64,000 nucleotides of DNA from Cryobacterium psychrotolerans (GTDB lineage: Bacteria; Actinomycetota; Actinomycetes; Actinomycetales; Microbacteriaceae), in assembly GCF_900101115.1 (NCBI RefSeq), contig NZ_FNFU01000012.1, positions 1-64,000 of the forward strand. Direction: 5' to 3'. The notes beneath the pieces are model-generated. The model was not told the origin of the DNA and made no database searches. It saw only the letters and a program-made list of their open reading frames with translations. Shown in pieces: positions 10,004 through 54,219 of the stretch. The stretch's first letter is position 1. Each line of letters starts with the position of its first letter. A program made the position numbers and the translations under genes.

Positions 10004-10452
10004 TTTCCCTCTTCGACGAGATCGCCCCGGGGCTCTCCGGCCTCGAACAGCTCCGCGCGATGATCGCCTCCGGCCGTCGCCCGGGGATGGGCGAATCGCT
10101 CGATTTCACCCTGGTCGAGGCCGAGGAGGGACGCGCCGTTTTCGAGAGTGTGCCCGGGCGGCACGCCTACAACCCGATCGGCACGGTGCACGGCGGGTAT
10201 GCCGCGACGCTGCTCGACAGTGCCTGCGGCTGCGCGGCGCACTCGCGGCTGACCGCGACGCAGGGGTACACCACCCTGGAGCTCAAGGTGTCGTTCCACC
10301 GCCCGATCACCGCCGACACCGGGCCGGTCCGGGCCGAGGCGACGCTGATCTCCTTCGGCCGACGAGCGGCCTTCGCCCAGGCGGCCCTCACGGATGCCCG
10401 GGGCCGCGTCTACGCCACCGCCACCTCGACCCTGCTCATCTTCGAACGCTGA
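10000..10452 (+). CDS. PaaI-family (hotdog-fold) thioesterase
   Basis: A 150-residue hotdog-fold protein that hydrolyses acyl-CoA or aryl-CoA thioesters. The active-site region is NPIGTVHGGYAATLLDSACGCA (residues 59-80), with the conserved HGG, and TLELKVSFHRPIT follows, typical of the PaaI/YdiI group. The ATG overlaps the TGA of the upstream oxidoreductase gene, so translation is coupled. The stop codon is immediately followed by a palindrome that fills the gap to the convergent gene. Confidence 0.88.
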   Translation: MISLFDEIAPGLSGLEQLRAMIASGRRPGMGESLDFTLVEAEEGRAVFESVPGRHAYNPIGTVHGGYAATLLDSACGCAAHSRLTATQGYTTLELKVSFHRPITADTGPVRAEATLISFGRRAAFAQAALTDARGRVYATATSTLLIFER

Positions 10453-10521
10453 CCCCCGCGAAAACGCAGTTGTGCGCGTTATTCGGGCGTTTTAGCGCGC
10501 ACAACTGCGGTTTCGCGGGGG
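10453..10521. repeat. Dispersed palindrome, family A, copy 1
   Basis: Left arm 10453-10478 (begins CCCCCGCGAAAACGCAGTTG) and right arm 10496-10521 pair over 26 bp with one mismatch, around the 17-nt loop TTATTCGGGCGTTTTAG. The element fills exactly the gap between the stop of the thioesterase gene (10450-10452) and the stop of the convergent DUF6457 gene (10522-10524). Three further copies lie at 21829, 41647 and 48030. Confidence 0.95.
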
Positions 10522-10806
10522 TTATTCGGTCGCGAGCCGGGTGGCGATCGCGGCGATCCGTTCGACGTCGTCGGGGGAGCCGCCGGCGAGAGCGGCCGCG
10601 TAGCCGACCAGGAACGTGGTGAGGGGCGCGGCCGGACGGGCCACGCCGTGGGCTGCGTCGCGGGCGAGGTCGAGCACGAGCGCGACGTTGATGACGTCGG
10701 CCGGAAGACCCAGCTCCCGGACGAGTCGGGTGACCCACTCGTCGAGCACGGCCGGGCCGGATGCCGCGGGGCTGGGCGGCAACACTGGTGCGGTGTCTTC
10801 TGGCAT
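10522..10806 (-). CDS. DUF6457 family protein (molybdenum-cofactor-associated)
   Basis: A 94-residue helical protein with the signature LDEWVTRLVRELGLPADV...LVLDLARDAAHGVARPAAPLTTFLVG. This domain (DUF6457) recurs in Actinobacteria alone or fused to molybdopterin-guanine dinucleotide biosynthesis proteins, so a link to molybdenum cofactor use is likely, but no mo- gene is adjacent here. The ATG at 10806 is preceded by AAGGAGT. Its TAA directly abuts palindrome A1. Confidence 0.78.
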   Translation of the reverse strand: MPEDTAPVLPPSPAASGPAVLDEWVTRLVRELGLPADVINVALVLDLARDAAHGVARPAAPLTTFLVGYAAALAGGSPDDVERIAAIATRLATE

Positions 10807-20503: not shown

Positions 20504-21658
20504 ATGCAGTTCGGAATCTTCACCGTCGGGGACATCACCACCGACCCCACGACCGGTCGGACCCCGACCGAACACGAGCGCATCAAGGCCATGGTCACCA
20601 TCGCCAGGAAGGTCGAAGAGGTCGGGCTCGACGTCTTCGCCACCGGCGAGCACCACAACCCGCCCTTCGTGCCCTCCTCGCCGACCACCCTCCTCGGCTA
20701 CATCGCCGCGCAGACCGAGCGGATCGTGTTGTCCACGGCGACCACGCTGATCACGACCAACGACCCGGTCAAGATCGCCGAGGACTACGCCATGCTGCAG
20801 CACCTCGCCGAAGGCCGGGTCGACCTGATGCTGGGCCGCGGCAACACGGGCCCGGTCTACCCCTGGTTCGGCCAGGACATCCGCCAGGGCATCCCGCTGG
20901 CCCTCGAGCACTATGCGCTGCTGCGCCGGCTCTGGCGCGAGGACTCCGTGGACTGGTCGGGCCAGTTCCGCACCCCCCTGCAGGGCTTCCAGTCGACGCC
21001 GCGTCCGCTCGACGGCGTGCCGCCCTTCGTCTGGCACGGCAGCATCCGCACCCCGGAGATCGCCGAGCAGGCCGCCTTCTACGGCGACGGCCTCTTCTCG
21101 AACCACATCTTCTGGCCCGCCTCGCACACCGCGAAGATGGTGGGGTACTACCGCCAGCGCTTCGAGCACTACGGCCACGGGACCGCCGCGCAGGCCATCG
21201 TCGGACTCGGCGGGCAGGTGTTCATGCGCAAGAACTCGCAGGACGCCGTCAATGAGTTCCGCCCGTACTTCAACAACGCCCCGGTCTACGGCCACGGCCC
21301 GAGCCTGGAGGAGTTCACCGAGCAGACTCCGCTGACCGTCGGCAGCCCGCAGGAGATCATCGACCGCACGCTCGGCTTCCGCGATTACGTGGGCGACTAC
21401 CAGCGCCAGCTCTGGCTGATGGACCACGCGGGCCTGCCCCTGAAGGTCGTGCTCGAACAGCTCGACCTCCTCGGCGAGGAAGTCGTGCCCGTGCTCCGAG
21501 CCGAGTTCGCGAAGATGCGCCCGGCGACCGTGCCGGATGCCCCGACGCACGCCTCCCTCACGGCCGCCGCCGAGGCGCGGGCGATCGCGGAGACCGTCCT
21601 GAAGTCGAGCCCGGCCGGTGCCCCCGGCCTCGCCGCGTCGAACCCGAAGGGGGCCTGA
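20504..21658 (+). CDS. CE1758-type FMN-dependent luciferase-like monooxygenase
   Basis: A 384-residue LLM-superfamily flavoprotein. It opens MQFGIFTVGDITTDPTTG and carries the group signature FATGEHHNPPFVPSSP (residues 46-61), VLSTATTLITTNDPVKIAEDYAMLQHL and RGNTGPVYPWFGQD. This subgroup (CE1758) is normally encoded with a CE1759-type NADPH:FMN reductase that supplies reduced flavin. Here the partner directly downstream is a broken remnant, so reduced FMN must come from elsewhere or the pathway is decaying. A TAGAAT at 20463-20468 is a probable -10 site and GAGAGG precedes the ATG. The substrate is unknown. Confidence 0.9.
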   Translation: MQFGIFTVGDITTDPTTGRTPTEHERIKAMVTIARKVEEVGLDVFATGEHHNPPFVPSSPTTLLGYIAAQTERIVLSTATTLITTNDPVKIAEDYAMLQHLAEGRVDLMLGRGNTGPVYPWFGQDIRQGIPLALEHYALLRRLWREDSVDWSGQFRTPLQGFQSTPRPLDGVPPFVWHGSIRTPEIAEQAAFYGDGLFSNHIFWPASHTAKMVGYYRQRFEHYGHGTAAQAIVGLGGQVFMRKNSQDAVNEFRPYFNNAPVYGHGPSLEEFTEQTPLTVGSPQEIIDRTLGFRDYVGDYQRQLWLMDHAGLPLKVVLEQLDLLGEEVVPVLRAEFAKMRPATVPDAPTHASLTAAAEARAIAETVLKSSPAGAPGLAASNPKGA

Positions 21659-21659
21659 G

Positions 21660-21827
21660 ATGACGACCCGCCGACTTGCCGTGGTGTCCGCCGGGCTGAG
21701 CCAAGTCCCTCACCGACATGCCGGTGCTGATCGGGGCGACCGCCGGCACGGCGCGCCACTCGCTGGCGCTGGACCACGCGCTGCGGCCGATGTTCACCTA
21801 CCTGCATTCCGTGGGCGTGCCGTCTAA
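21660..21827 (+). pseudogene. Remnant of CE1759-type NADPH:FMN reductase
   Basis: Directly after the monooxygenase stop, an ATG opens MTTRRLAVVSAGLS, the expected first 14 residues of the partner FMN reductase. The homology then jumps: from about 21703, in a different frame, it resumes with DMPVLIGATAGTARHSLALDHALRPMFTYL, a block that normally lies near residue 110 of a roughly 200-residue protein. The stretch between is deleted and the frame is shifted. The remaining C-terminal part is missing too; homology ends at the palindrome at 21829. The initial frame stops at 21827 after 55 codons. Confidence 0.82.
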
Positions 21828-21828
21828 C

Positions 21829-21891
21829 CCGCGAAACCGCAGTTGTGCGCGCTAAAACGTCGTTTTAGCGCGCACAACTGCGGTTTCGCGG
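21829..21891. repeat. Dispersed palindrome, family A, copy 2
   Basis: The most perfect copy: 31-bp arms (21829-21859, starting CCGCGAAACCGCAGTTGTGC, and 21861-21891) with no mismatch around a single T. The 17-nt loop of the other copies is here CTAAAACGTCGTTTTAG, itself palindromic. It abuts the truncated reductase remnant on the left and the pnp promoter region on the right. Confidence 0.95.
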
Positions 21892-22163
21892 AGGGGGGAA
21901 GGGGGTATCTGGGGGCGGGGCTGTTAGAATTGGGACGGCCATTCTCGGATGGCCGAGCAATTGGAGCAGGCTGGCAGGAAGCTGGTCCTCGGTGGTGGTT
22001 TCCCAACCGCGGTTCACACGAACGGCGTGGTGGTGAATTTCTACTGGTGGCCAGCACGAGTCGGCGCTCACTGCGCACGACTTCGTCCTGCCTGTTCCCT
22101 GCTCCTTGTCCCACTCGCGCGCCACACGGGCATGCGAGTCTAAACAAAGGAGAGAACCCCCAC
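21892..22163 (+). promoter_or_regulatory. Promoter and long leader of pnp
   Basis: TAGAAT at 21925-21930 is a likely -10 element. It implies a 5' leader of about 227 nt before the pnp ATG, with no convincing small gene inside. Long structured leaders are used for PNPase autoregulation in other bacteria; whether that holds here is inference. AAAGGAGAGAA precedes the start codon. Confidence 0.5.
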
Positions 22164-24440
22164 ATGGAGGGTCCAGAAATCACTTTCGCTGAAACCGTTA
22201 TCGATAACGGCAAGTACGGCAAGCGCACCATCCGTTTTGAAACCGGGCGTCTCGCCCAGCAGGCGCAGGGTTCTGCCGCCGCATACATCGACGAAGAAAC
22301 CATGCTTCTCTCCGCCACGAGCGCGAGCAAGCAGCCGAAGGAAAACTTCGACTTCTTCCCGCTGACCATCGATGTCGAGGAGCGTATGTACGCTGCCGGC
22401 CGCATCCCGGGCAGCTTCTTCCGTCGCGAAGGTCGCCCGTCGACCGAGGCGATCCTCACCTGCCGCCTGATCGACCGGCCGCTGCGCCCGTCGTTCGTCG
22501 ACGGCCTCCGCAACGAGATCCAGGTCGTCGTGACCGTTCTGGCCATCGCGCCGGACGAGTACTACGACGTGCTCGCGATCAACGCCGCGTCCATGTCGAC
22601 GCAGCTCGCCGGCCTCCCCTTCTCCGGACCGATCGGTGGCGTTCGCGTCGCCCTCATCCCCGATGAGAACGGCTCCGGCCAGTGGGTTGCCTTCCCGAAG
22701 TACTCGCAGATCGCCGACGCCGTGTTCAGCATGGTCGTTGCCGGTCGCGTCGTCACGGATGCCGATGGCGGCCAGGACGTCGCGATCATGATGATCGAGG
22801 CCGAAGCCACCGACAACTCGTGGGACCTCATCAAGGGCGGCGCCATCAAGCCGAACGAAGAGGTCATCGCCGAGGGCATCGAGGCATCCAAGCCCTTCAT
22901 CAAGCAGCTCATCGAGGCCCAGCAGAAGGTCGCGGCATCCGCTGCCAAGCCGACCGGCAACTACCAGGTCTTCCCGCCCTACCAGCCGGAGACCTACGAC
23001 GCCGTCGCGGCCCTGGCCGAGGCCGAGCTGGGCGACGTGTACAAGATCGCCGGCAAGGTCGAACGCCAGGATGCGGATGACGCACTCAAGGCTCGTGTCA
23101 AGGACGCCATCGCGGCCAGGATCGACGCCGGTGAACTTCCCGCCGGTGCGCTCGGCCAGGTCTCAGCGGCGTACAAGTCCGTCACGAAGAAGGTTGTCCG
23201 CACCCGCGTCCTCAACGAGGGCGTGCGCATGGACGGTCGCGGCCTCGCCGACATCCGCCCGCTCGACGCCGAGGTGGCTGTCATCCCGCGCGTGCACGGT
23301 TCGGCGATCTTCCAGCGCGGCGAGACCCAGATCCTGGGTGTCACCACGCTGAACATGCTCAAGCTCGAGCAGACGATCGACTCCCTGAGCCCGGTCACCA
23401 AGAAGCGCTACATGCACAACTACAACTTCCCGCCCTACTCGACCGGTGAAACCGGCCGGGTCGGAACGCCGAAGCGCCGCGAGATCGGCCACGGAGCACT
23501 CGCCGAGCGCGCCCTGGTCCCCGTGCTGCCCACGCGCGAGGAGTTCCCGTACGCCATCCGTCAGGTCTCCGAGGCGCTCAGCTCCAACGGTTCCACCTCG
23601 ATGGGTTCCGTCTGCGCCTCGACCCTGTCGATGCTCAACGCCGGTGTGCCGCTGCGCGCGCCCGTTGCCGGCATCGCCATGGGCCTCATCTCCGACACCG
23701 TTGACGGCAAGACCCGCTACGCGGCCCTGACCGACATCCTCGGCGCCGAAGACGCACTCGGCGACATGGACTTCAAGGTCGCCGGCACGAGCGAGTTCGT
23801 CACCGCGATCCAGCTCGACACCAAGCTCGACGGCATCCCCGCGTCGGTCCTGGCCGGAGCGCTCACCCAGGCCAAGGATGCTCGCACCACGATCCTCGCC
23901 GTGCTGAACGCCGCGATCGACAAGCCCGACGAGATGGCCCCGACCGCGCCCCGCGTGATCTCGGTCCAGATCCCGGTCGACAAGATCGGCGAGCTGATCG
24001 GCCCGAAGGGCAAGATGATCAACTCGATCCAGGACGAGACCGGAGCCGACATCTCGATCGAGGAAGACGGAACCGTGTACATCGGCGCCGTCGACGGTCC
24101 CTCGGCCGAGGCCGCCCGCGCCATGGTCAACGCCGTCGCGAATCCGACCAACCCCGAGGTTGGCGAGCAGTTCCTCGGAACTGTCGTGAAGATCGCCGCA
24201 TTCGGCGCCTTCGTCTCGCTGCTCCCGGGCAAGGACGGCCTGCTGCACATCTCCGAGGTGCGCAAGCTCGCCGGTGGCAAGCGGGTCGAGAACGTCGAAG
24301 ACGTGCTCGGCGTGGGCCAGAAGGTCCTCGTTGAGATCACCAAGATTGACGACCGGGGCAAGCTGTCGCTCGCACCGGTTCTCGAGGAGTCGGCCGAGTC
24401 GGCCGAGTCCGCGAACGCCGAGGCTCCGACCGAAGCGTAG
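22164..24440 (+). CDS. pnp: Polyribonucleotide nucleotidyltransferase (PNPase)
   Basis: A 758-residue phosphorolytic 3'-5' exoribonuclease. Two RNase PH-like halves come first: residues about 20-250 with [25 protein letters not shown], and about 340-560 with [13 protein letters not shown] and the catalytic-site region [26 protein letters not shown] domain with [18 protein letters not shown] is near 615 and an S1 domain with [27 protein letters not shown] near 675, ending in an acidic tail. All domains are intact. Start at 22164 with a good ribosome-binding site. A UUCG-capped terminator follows. Confidence 0.97.
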
Positions 24441-33512: not shown

Positions 33513-35108
33513 ATGGTGCCGGTCTGGATTTGCGAGGCCTGCGGGCTGGAGCATCCGGAGACGGCCGAACCGCCGCCGGTGTGCGTGATCTGCACCGACG
33601 AACGGCAATTCGTGCCGCCCGTCGGCCAGAGCTGGACCACCTCGGAGCGGCTCGAACGGGCGGGCACCACTGCGAGCGTCGCCGCGGTCGAGGCCGGGCT
33701 CCACCGGATGACGGTGGCGCCTCGGGTCGGGATCGGCCAGCAGGCATTCCTCGTCACCACTCCGGCCGGGAACCTGCTCTGGGAGCCGCCGGGATTCATC
33801 TCCGCGGCCTTCGGCGACGCCGTGCGGGCCCTCGGCGGAGTGGCGGCGGTGGCCGGGAGCCATCCGCACCTGATGGGGGCGGCCATCAGCTGGAGCCACG
33901 CCTTCGGCGACGCCCCGGTCTACGTCGCTTCGGACGACGCGGCCTGGAGCCGCCGGCCCGACCCGGCGATCCGGCACTGGGGCGGCCGCGAGAGCCCGCT
34001 GCCGGGCGTCACCCTCGTGCAGTGCGGCGGGCACTTCCCGGGCAGTTGCGTGCTGTTGTGGCGGGACGGCGCCGAGGGTCGCGGGGTGCTCCTGACCGGC
34101 GACACGATCTTCATCGGCCCGGACAATATGACCGTCAGCGCGATGCGCTCGTACCCGACCCTGATCCCGCTGCCCGAGCAGGCGGTGCGGATCATCCGGG
34201 ACCGGCTGGACTCGCTGACCTACGACCGCATGTACGGCCCCTTCGGCCAGGTCGTGGCCTCGGGCGCCCGCCCCATCGTTACGCGCTCCCTCACCCGCCT
34301 GATCGCCTGGCTCCGAGCCGACATCCCCGATTTCGCCCCCACTACCTACCCCGCCCCCTCCGCCCCGCCCCCTCCGCCGAACTGTGAGTTTGGCACCTTC
34401 GTGGGCGTCGGGAAGGTGCCAAACTCACAGTTCGGCGGTAGTTCGGCGGAGGGGTGGGTCGGCGGGTGGGTGTCAGGCGGGCGTGAGGGCGGTGAGGGCC
34501 ATCTGCTCGAGGAGGGCGCGCACGGTTGCCGGACTGGCGCCGGCGGTGGCGCTGTGCGGGGTCGAGTTGATCAGGCCGAACGTCGCATGGGCACGGATGC
34601 GAAGCAGCGCCGTGTCCACGCCCGGATGCACGCGGCCGAGCACCTGCACCCACAGCTCCACGTAGGCCCGCTGCAGGGCGCGCACCCGGTGCCGGTCCGC
34701 CTCGGCGAGGCTGTCGAGGTCGCGGTCCTGCACCCGGATGACGTCGGGGTTGGACAGGGCGAAGTCCACGTGGAAGCGCACCAGCGCGGCCAGCGCGGCC
34801 GCGGCATCCGGATGCGCGCCGGCGACGGCGCGGCCCCCGGCGACGAGGTCCTCGCTGGCGCCGACCAGCAGCGCGGCGAGCACCGCCTGCTTGCCGCTGA
34901 AATGGCGGTAGACGGCCGGCCCGCTGACCCCGGCGGCCGTGCCGAGGTCTTCGATCGAGGCGCCGTTGAAGCCCGAGCGGGCGAAAAGCGACGCGGCGGC
35001 CGCCAGCAGCGCCTCGCGCCGGTCGGCCTTGGCCAGGCTGCGGGGCGTTGGCGCGGCGGCCGGCGCCGGCCGGGGGGCCGGCGCGGCGGCTCTCATGTCG
35101 ACCATTGA
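33513..35108 (+). CDS. MBL-fold hydrolase with zinc ribbon; frame runs on past its natural end
   Basis: The first about 280 residues form a metallo-beta-lactamase-fold protein preceded by a zinc ribbon (Cys7, Cys10, Cys24, Cys27). Recognisable parts are AGNLLWEPPGFIS, AVAGSHPHLMGA, VQCGGHFPGSCVLLW and GVLLTGDTIFIGPD; a full HxHxDH is not present, so this is a divergent branch. Homology-like sequence ends at about 34370 (AWLRADIPDFAP). No stop occurs there: the frame passes through the palindrome at 34374-34438 and continues antisense to the tetR gene to 35108, adding some 240 low-complexity residues. The natural stop seems lost. Confidence 0.7.
   Translation: MVPVWICEACGLEHPETAEPPPVCVICTDERQFVPPVGQSWTTSERLERAGTTASVAAVEAGLHRMTVAPRVGIGQQAFLVTTPAGNLLWEPPGFISAAFGDAVRALGGVAAVAGSHPHLMGAAISWSHAFGDAPVYVASDDAAWSRRPDPAIRHWGGRESPLPGVTLVQCGGHFPGSCVLLWRDGAEGRGVLLTGDTIFIGPDNMTVSAMRSYPTLIPLPEQAVRIIRDRLDSLTYDRMYGPFGQVVASGARPIVTRSLTRLIAWLRADIPDFAPTTYPAPSAPPPPPNCEFGTFVGVGKVPNSQFGGSSAEGWVGGWVSGGREGGEGHLLEEGAHGCRTGAGGGAVRGRVDQAERRMGTDAKQRRVHARMHAAEHLHPQLHVGPLQGAHPVPVRLGEAVEVAVLHPDDVGVGQGEVHVEAHQRGQRGRGIRMRAGDGAAPGDEVLAGADQQRGEHRLLAAEMAVDGRPADPGGRAEVFDRGAVEARAGEKRRGGRQQRLAPVGLGQAAGRWRGGRRRPGGRRGGSHVDH
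34374..34438. repeat. Palindrome, family D/E, copy 1
   Basis: Perfect 27-bp arms (34374-34400, starting CCGCCGAACTGTGAGTTTGG, and 34412-34438) with an 11-nt loop GTGGGCGTCGG. It shares the inner CACCTTC...GAAGGTG core with the element at 54098 but has unrelated outer arms. Lies between the metallo-hydrolase and tetR genes. Confidence 0.95.
34473..35105 (-). CDS. TetR/AcrR-family regulator of the acyl-CoA carboxylase operon
   Basis: A 210-residue repressor. After an Ala/Pro-rich N-terminus (about 22 residues) comes the TetR helix-turn-helix (RREALLAAAASLFARSGFNGASIEDLGTAAGVSGPAVYRHFSGKQAVLAALL, about 28-80), then a helical ligand-binding domain. It is divergent from accD1, with 100 nt between the starts, containing a near-perfect 16-bp palindrome at 35156-35171 suited to a TetR dimer. 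By analogy with actinobacterial acyl-CoA carboxylase clusters, it likely represses the leucine-catabolism operon and responds to an acyl-CoA (inference). Confidence 0.9.
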   Translation of the reverse strand: MVDMRAAAPAPRPAPAAAPTPRSLAKADRREALLAAAASLFARSGFNGASIEDLGTAAGVSGPAVYRHFSGKQAVLAALLVGASEDLVAGGRAVAGAHPDAAAALAALVRFHVDFALSNPDVIRVQDRDLDSLAEADRHRVRALQRAYVELWVQVLGRVHPGVDTALLRIRAHATFGLINSTPHSATAGASPATVRALLEQMALTALTPA

Positions 35109-41634: not shown

Positions 41635-41646
41635 CCCCTCGCCACA

Positions 41647-41713
41647 TCCCGCGAAACCGCAGTTGTGCGCGTTATTCCGGCGTCTTGGCGCGCACAACTG
41701 CGGTTTCGCGGGA
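41647..41713. repeat. Dispersed palindrome, family A, copy 3
   Basis: Perfect 25-bp arms (41647-41671, starting TCCCGCGAAACCGCAGTTGT, and 41689-41713) around the 17-nt loop TTATTCCGGCGTCTTGG. The right arm and loop encode the last 13 residues and the stop codon of the glutathione peroxidase gene on the minus strand. Confidence 0.95.
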
Positions 41714-42187
41714 GATGGCCCGCACGATTTGCTCGGATTCGGGTTCCACCGTCGACGCGAAGCGGTCGACGACCTGGCCGGCGGAGTTGACCAGGAACTT
41801 CTCGAAGTTCCACTTGATCAGTCCCGGCAGCGGGCCGCTCTTGAAGGTCGTCAGTTCCGCGTAGAGCGGATGCTGGTGCTTGCCCCGCACATCCACCTTC
41901 TCGGTCAGCGGGAAGCTCACGCCGAAGTTCAGTTCGCAGAACGACGCGATATCGGCCTCGTCGCCCGGCTCCTGGCCCATGAACTGGTTGCAGGGCAGGC
42001 CGAGCACCACGAAGCCCTCGTCCTTGTACCTGCGGTACAGCGCCTCCAGGCCCGCGTACTGAGGGGTGAAGCCGCACTTCGAGGCGACGTTGACGACGAG
42101 CACCGTCTTGCCCCTGAACCGGTCGAACGTCGTCTCCGTGCCGTCGATGAGGGTGAGCGGGATCTCGTAAAGCGTCGATGCTGTCAT
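41672..42187 (-). CDS. Glutathione peroxidase family thiol peroxidase
   Basis: A 171-residue thioredoxin-fold peroxidase that reduces hydroperoxides. The peroxidatic Cys38 is in NVASKCGFTPQY, with Gln68/Asn67 in LPCNQFMGQEPG and Trp126 in IKWNFEKFLV completing the active site; a possible resolving Cys84 is in ASFCELNFG. Bacterial members usually use thioredoxin rather than glutathione. ATG at 42187 lies 6 nt after TATCCT, so it is probably leaderless. The final residues 159-171 ([13 protein letters not shown]) and the stop are contributed by palindrome A3, so the native C-terminus was replaced or extended. Confidence 0.9.
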   Translation of the reverse strand: MTASTLYEIPLTLIDGTETTFDRFRGKTVLVVNVASKCGFTPQYAGLEALYRRYKDEGFVVLGLPCNQFMGQEPGDEADIASFCELNFGVSFPLTEKVDVRGKHQHPLYAELTTFKSGPLPGLIKWNFEKFLVNSAGQVVDRFASTVEPESEQIVRAISRETAVVRAKTPE

Positions 42188-48013: not shown

Positions 48014-48029
48014 CCCGCCTTCCCCGCCT

Positions 48030-48092
48030 CCGCGAAACCGCAGTTGTGCGCGCTAAAACGCGTTCATAACGCGCACGACTGCGGTTTCGCGG
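48030..48092. repeat. Dispersed palindrome, family A, copy 4
   Basis: Arms 48030-48052 (CCGCGAAACCGCAGTTGTGC onward) and 48070-48092 pair over 23 bp with one mismatch; loop CTAAAACGCGTTCATAA, which is the reverse complement orientation of the loops in copies 1 and 3. Located between two convergent genes (stops at 48013 and 48110). Confidence 0.95.
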
Positions 48093-48109
48093 GGGGAAGA
48101 CGGGGGAAG

Positions 48110-54064: not shown

Positions 54065-54097
54065 CCCGCGCCCCTCCCGCCCGCCTCCCGGGTTGAC

Positions 54098-54146
54098 TTG
54101 CGGAAAAAGTACCTTCGTCGAGCCCGGGAAGGTACTTTGTCCGCAA
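54098..54146. repeat. Palindrome, family D/E, copy 2
   Basis: Arms TTGCGGAAAAAGTACCTTC (54098-54116) and its complement (54128-54146) pair over 19 bp with one mismatch around the 11-nt loop GTCGAGCCCGG. The inner TACCTTC/GAAGGTA matches the core of the element at 34374 with a compensating base-pair change. In the 168-nt gap between RNase J and ftsK, just upstream of the ftsK promoter. Confidence 0.92.
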
Positions 54147-54219
54147 TTCAGCGGGCGATGGATGGGCAGCAAGCCGTGACGGGTGGGCGTGGGCTGCCGA
54201 ACAACGGCGCGGGCGGCGG

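Follow-up and report, generated by a model that had tools for sequence, protein, structure and literature searches.

The FMN reductase of a two-gene monooxygenase operon in Cryobacterium psychrotolerans has most probably decayed in the lineage of this genome after its split from a sister species, the palindrome behind it being older than the damage and independent of it, and the monooxygenase staying under constraint and being fed by an unlinked reductase. The first-pass annotation of the window, that is, the whole 64,000-nucleotide stretch analysed here (contig NZ_FNFU01000012.1, positions 1 to 64,000), had the reductase gene breaking off exactly at the palindrome and tied that element to the gene loss. 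The reading in which a palindrome broke the gene gives way here to an event placed on one branch. The host genome, G000, comprises 3.25 Mb in 45 contigs with a completeness given as 99.99, and comparisons within the genus were made in a sample of 57 Cryobacterium genomes, one per species.

Results

An operon with a decayed reductase

The luciferase-like gene at 20504–21658 (+ strand) is intact, as first annotated. In a profile search, it passes the CE1758 family model TIGR04036 with 705 bits against a curated cut-off of 479.1, over model positions 1–354 of 355, and it also matches PF00296 with an E-value of 5.2e-67. Based on its family, the enzyme is predicted to oxidize a substrate with reduced FMN and oxygen. 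A literature search on CE1758/CE1759 returned nothing relevant and no experimental work on the Cryobacterium enzyme.

Directly 3' of this gene, at 21660–21827 on the same strand, lies the relic of a CE1759-type FMN reductase. The locus resembles the CE1758/CE1759 pair (TIGR04036/TIGR04037) in gene order and strand, in a monooxygenase far over its cut-off and in a reductase that is intact in the sister species; it differs in that the reductase of the window is reduced to 168 nt with two deletions. The relic reaches 59.1 bits in a genome-wide profile search, compared with a TIGR04037 cut-off of 175.9, and is not a working member of the CE1759 family. The recognizable part is a 41-aa piece at 21703–21825, which matches positions 101–140 of the 199 in TIGR04037 (E 2e-17).

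Alignment to the intact gene of the sister species bears out the internal deletion and frameshift previously noted and gives the anatomy of the relic. Two deletions, of 272 nt and 157 nt, have all of their ends within coding sequence and amount to a net loss of 429 of 597 nt. They separate a 5' remnant of about 14 codons (21660–21702), a middle remnant (21703–21818) that is frameshifted relative to the start, and a 3' remnant (21819–21827) that includes the stop codon. Since the ATG at 21660 shares its frame with the TAA at 21825–21827, where the sister has TAG, a 55-aa open reading frame with a frameshifted middle remains. The terminal GCCGTC of the gene and the stop codon are still present just 5' of the palindrome, and the gene, therefore, does not break off at that element. 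Both deletion junctions can be read as putative short-microhomology events (1–4 nt), a reading that codon variants in the relatives allow.

The nearest relative and sister species, G054, was matched to Cryobacterium tagatosivorans Sr47. It carries the same operon, with an intact reductase of 198 codons and the same palindrome just 3' of the stop codon. Because the sister has this palindrome beside an intact gene, the palindrome predates the damage, a cut through the reductase by palindrome insertion is ruled out, and the proposed causal link between the palindrome and the deletion is unsupported. An intact pair of this kind in a close relative is the outcome that the first-pass annotation had itself named as refuting the link. 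Downstream of the palindrome, a probable Actino-pnp leader RNA at 21981–22055 (+ strand; RF01688, E 5.6e-6, 37.7 bits with a gathering score of 47.7 not reached) precedes a gene at 22164–24440 (+ strand). We take the latter to be pnp, encoding polyribonucleotide nucleotidyltransferase, a name that agrees with the leader RNA upstream. This gene is matched in all 57 genus genomes and was used as the synteny anchor 3' of the palindrome; its protein is 99% identical between G000 and G054.

Recurrent reductase absence and constraint on the monooxygenase

The monooxygenase scores above its cut-off in 53 of the 57 genus genomes and the reductase in 29 of the 57, not always in the same place, which leaves 24 of the 53 with a monooxygenase and no reductase. 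Reductase presence changes at least eight times on the pnp tree and at least seven times on the monooxygenase tree, with six changes forced by well-supported branches in each; any of these changes may be a gain or a loss, and both trees come from quick searches, with branch support by SH-aLRT and not by bootstrap. The reductase loss in the window is thus gene decay of an ordinary kind, in a situation that recurs across the genus. As a side observation, another truncated CE1759-type reductase, the second besides the relic of the window, occurs in G036 (L094 11099–11221); in it, only the first 33–34 model positions are matched.

The median dN/dS in a 12-species clade without the reductase is 0.107 for the monooxygenase and 0.078 for pnp. 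In two reductase-bearing clades, the values are 0.056 and 0.028 for the monooxygenase and 0.075 and 0.117 for pnp, and in the window–sister pair they are 0.225 and 0.074, respectively. All are pairwise counts, with G008, G039 and G043 excluded for pnp and the better match taken in G012, which has two monooxygenases. The monooxygenase is constrained in the absence of the reductase, somewhat less than in its presence, and the higher values in the reductase-less clade and in the window–sister pair could reflect relaxing constraint. They are also what one would expect if the whole monooxygenase system were decaying and the monooxygenase had simply not been broken yet, as are the four of the 57 genomes without an above-cut-off monooxygenase, among which G037 has an 84-residue remnant. 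This broader decay is nevertheless unlikely, given that the 12-species clade has retained its monooxygenase at a dN/dS of 0.107 and that polarized changes in non-synonymous codons stand at 8/19 on the window branch against 6/20 on the sister branch, with 13 more assigned to neither.

PyrD- and PyrK-like genes occur between the monooxygenase and pnp in some genomes, for example at L101 3495–5485 and L096 6208–8549. Within the stretches around the monooxygenase or pnp, they were found in 24 genus genomes and are absent from that of the window. Their presence in these stretches in 12 of the 29 genomes with the reductase and 12 of the 24 without it rules them out as its replacement.

Candidate sources of reduced FMN

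A genome-wide profile search for another reductase of the same type, as the first-pass annotation had proposed, gave no further CE1759-type match in G000 at E 0.001, which rules out a second such gene elsewhere in the genome at this threshold. Other flavin-reductase candidates were found. One is the single PF01613 flavin reductase of G000 (185 aa, G000:C34:246123-246554, E 2.5e-29), which scores under the cut-offs of the HsaB, RutF and HpaC models; the other is a single weak PF03358 protein (28.7 bits) that matches no NCBIfam model. These results, and the like condition of the 24 genomes above, support the earlier suggestion of a monooxygenase without a partner, perhaps served from elsewhere. 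The diketocamphane monooxygenases of Pseudomonas putida are described as receiving reduced FMN from several reductases encoded elsewhere (PMC6352141). These enzymes also belong to the FMN-dependent luciferase family and provide a model for how the window enzyme could work, while differing from it in subfamily and substrate.

A lineage-specific family of palindromes

The palindrome at 21829–21891 is perfect, with 31-nt arms around a 1-nt centre. It belongs to a family, here called family A, with a unit of 61 nt made up of a conserved 22-nt arm, a variable core of exactly 17 nt and the inverted arm. The window holds four copies (10452–10522, 21829–21891, 41641–41719 and 48027–48095), and a 25-nt arm pattern matches it five times, compared with 0.00 expected from 100 shuffles. 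The copy behind the relic had been described as the most perfect one, which holds within the window and not genome-wide, the 61 nt of copy L189 being identical to it.

Allowing up to two mismatches, the arm is matched 82 and 79 times on the two strands of G000 and 84 and 84 times on those of G054, corresponding to about 80 copies in each, and not at all in the other 55 genus genomes. A longer pattern of 33 nt had no match in 397 other genomes sampled from the taxonomic family, 388 of them from other genera, a weak negative because in G000 itself the same pattern recovers no more than 23 and 19 matches. We examined 119 copies individually, 66 in G000 and 53 in G054, a subset of all arm matches. 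For 42 of the 66 copies in G000, a flank match was present in the examined sister set, and 35 of the 66 match on both flanks. In these 35 orthologous pairs, divergence is 3.1% in the arms and 19.5% in the cores, with a mean flank identity of 90.7%. One pair (L008 1501 and L322 1458) has a core that appears inverted between the orthologues, with 16 of 17 positions matching in inverted orientation and 7 in direct orientation. Core inversion is suggestive in two further pairs and, as it is clear in only one of the 35, we do not claim it.

A second palindrome family was also observed. The stretch at 34374–34438 is a copy of it, with the arm GAACTGTGAGTTTGGCACCTTC, which is matched 39 and 41 times on the two strands of G000, 49 and 51 times in G054 and 0–6 times per strand in the others. 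A looser palindrome at 54094–54150 has only the inner arm sequence in common with this family.

Palindromes at gene 3' ends

A stop codon lies 0–30 nt from the arm in 91 of the 119 copies, so proximity to a gene end is the usual arrangement for these palindromes and not a scar. By setting, 54 of the copies stand between convergent genes, 52 between tandem and 2 between divergent ones; another 5 are overlapped by a called ORF, and for 6 just one neighbour was called. For comparison, the same gene caller gives 10 convergent pairs among 50 adjacent gene pairs of the window. Among the gene ends that face palindromes, 34 of 166 are farther than 30 nt away. The surrounding genes were called by a simple codon-usage caller, which misses the relic, and the nearest called gene end to the window copy is therefore that of the monooxygenase, 171 nt away.

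The palindrome of the window folds as RNA into a stable hairpin (−61.6 kcal/mol, z −11.25). The T-tract expected of an intrinsic terminator is missing, since only 5 of the 238 outward flanks of 12 nt contain TTTT, and a terminator scan did not report this palindrome. Since the fold is very stable but lacks a T-tract, we describe the element as a 3'-end hairpin that is terminator-like; it may act as a bidirectional terminator or as a hairpin at mRNA ends. Based on a simple scan, other species, among them G004, G031 and G044, have long hairpins 3' of the same reductase whose stems are unrelated, and many species have only weak ones there. Rfam microRNA matches at the palindrome were far under their gathering scores and were taken as chance.

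Like REP elements mobilized with RAYT proteins, the members of family A are short extragenic palindromes repeated genome-wide. They differ in that their unit is 61 nt long, with a 17-nt core of fixed length, and in having no accompanying Y1_Tnp match: the domain (PF01797) was absent from all 57 genus genomes in a search whose control was positive in 5 of 14 genomes, which rules out a RAYT-driven REP origin. DNA uptake sequences occur in many single copies across a genome, also within genes. Of the family A arms in stretches that were chosen for palindromes, together with the 64-kb window, none was unpaired (127 arms in G000, 102 in G054), and over the whole genomes the arm counts on the two strands are balanced. 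The uptake-sequence terminators of Neisseria and Pasteurellaceae are built from a motif of 9–11 nt with generally at least 1,000 occurrences (PMC1852404). As described there, they share with family A a lineage-specific sequence, inverted pairs and a position common to many gene 3' ends, whereas family A has a 22-nt arm found about 80 times per strand, with 229 of 229 examined arms paired.

Palindromes and rearrangement

It is conceivable that the hairpin or cruciform stalled replication and that slippage then deleted the adjoining reductase sequence. The 157-nt deletion comes within 11 nt of the palindrome arm at one end. Across the flanks of the 35 orthologous copies, G000 and G054 differ by 55 indels of at least 20 nt, and 15 of these fall 0–29 nt from an arm, some of these near-arm gaps possibly being alignment effects at the anchored end. 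In addition, at another locus (L030 1501–2296 compared with L252 1908–1968), a 735-nt stretch of G000 lies between two copies where the sister has one copy, which indicates that rearrangements can involve family A elements. Another locus that at first seemed to show a rearrangement bounded by palindromes (L282 compared with L327/L328) was more complex on inspection and was not counted. For the reductase itself, a loss caused by the palindrome is improbable, as the sister keeps both the palindrome and an intact gene, the start of the larger deletion is 126 nt away from the arm, and the palindrome was itself retained. The zone near the arm, its first 30 nt or so, is mostly non-coding, so relaxed constraint explains the clustering of indels equally well.

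Discussion

Taken together, our data favour the decay of a reductase in an operon whose palindrome was already in place. The ancestral operon would have consisted of an FMN-dependent luciferase-like monooxygenase and an FMN reductase, closed by the palindrome before any damage occurred. The reductase would then have decayed on the branch to G000 through the two intragenic deletions. The monooxygenase most likely obtains its reduced FMN by diffusion from an unlinked reductase, for which the PF01613 protein is a candidate. The deletions are known from one assembly only, and long palindromes pose difficulties for both copying and assembly, but an artefact of sequencing or assembly at a site that forms a hairpin is highly improbable in view of two separate deletions, one of them starting well away from the palindrome, the completeness given for the genome and the intact sister copy at the same place.

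The lineage-specific palindromes at gene 3' ends are a more unusual part of this locus than the gene decay. It is possible, if somewhat doubtful, that gene 3' ends in Cryobacterium are often served by long hairpins whose stems are common within a lineage and give way to unrelated ones from lineage to lineage, even where the gene in front of them is the same. Family A might then be a concertedly evolving, lineage-specific repertoire with fast-changing cores that has spread without a RAYT protein and occasionally rearranges its surroundings. The presence of family A in two sister species, with about 80 sites in each, and its apparent absence from 55 relatives is a separate question from the fate of the reductase.

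For the monooxygenase family, absence of the dedicated reductase recurs within a single genus, with the monooxygenase itself retained. This recurrent absence makes the family a natural test of the extent to which oxygenases of this kind share reduced flavin.
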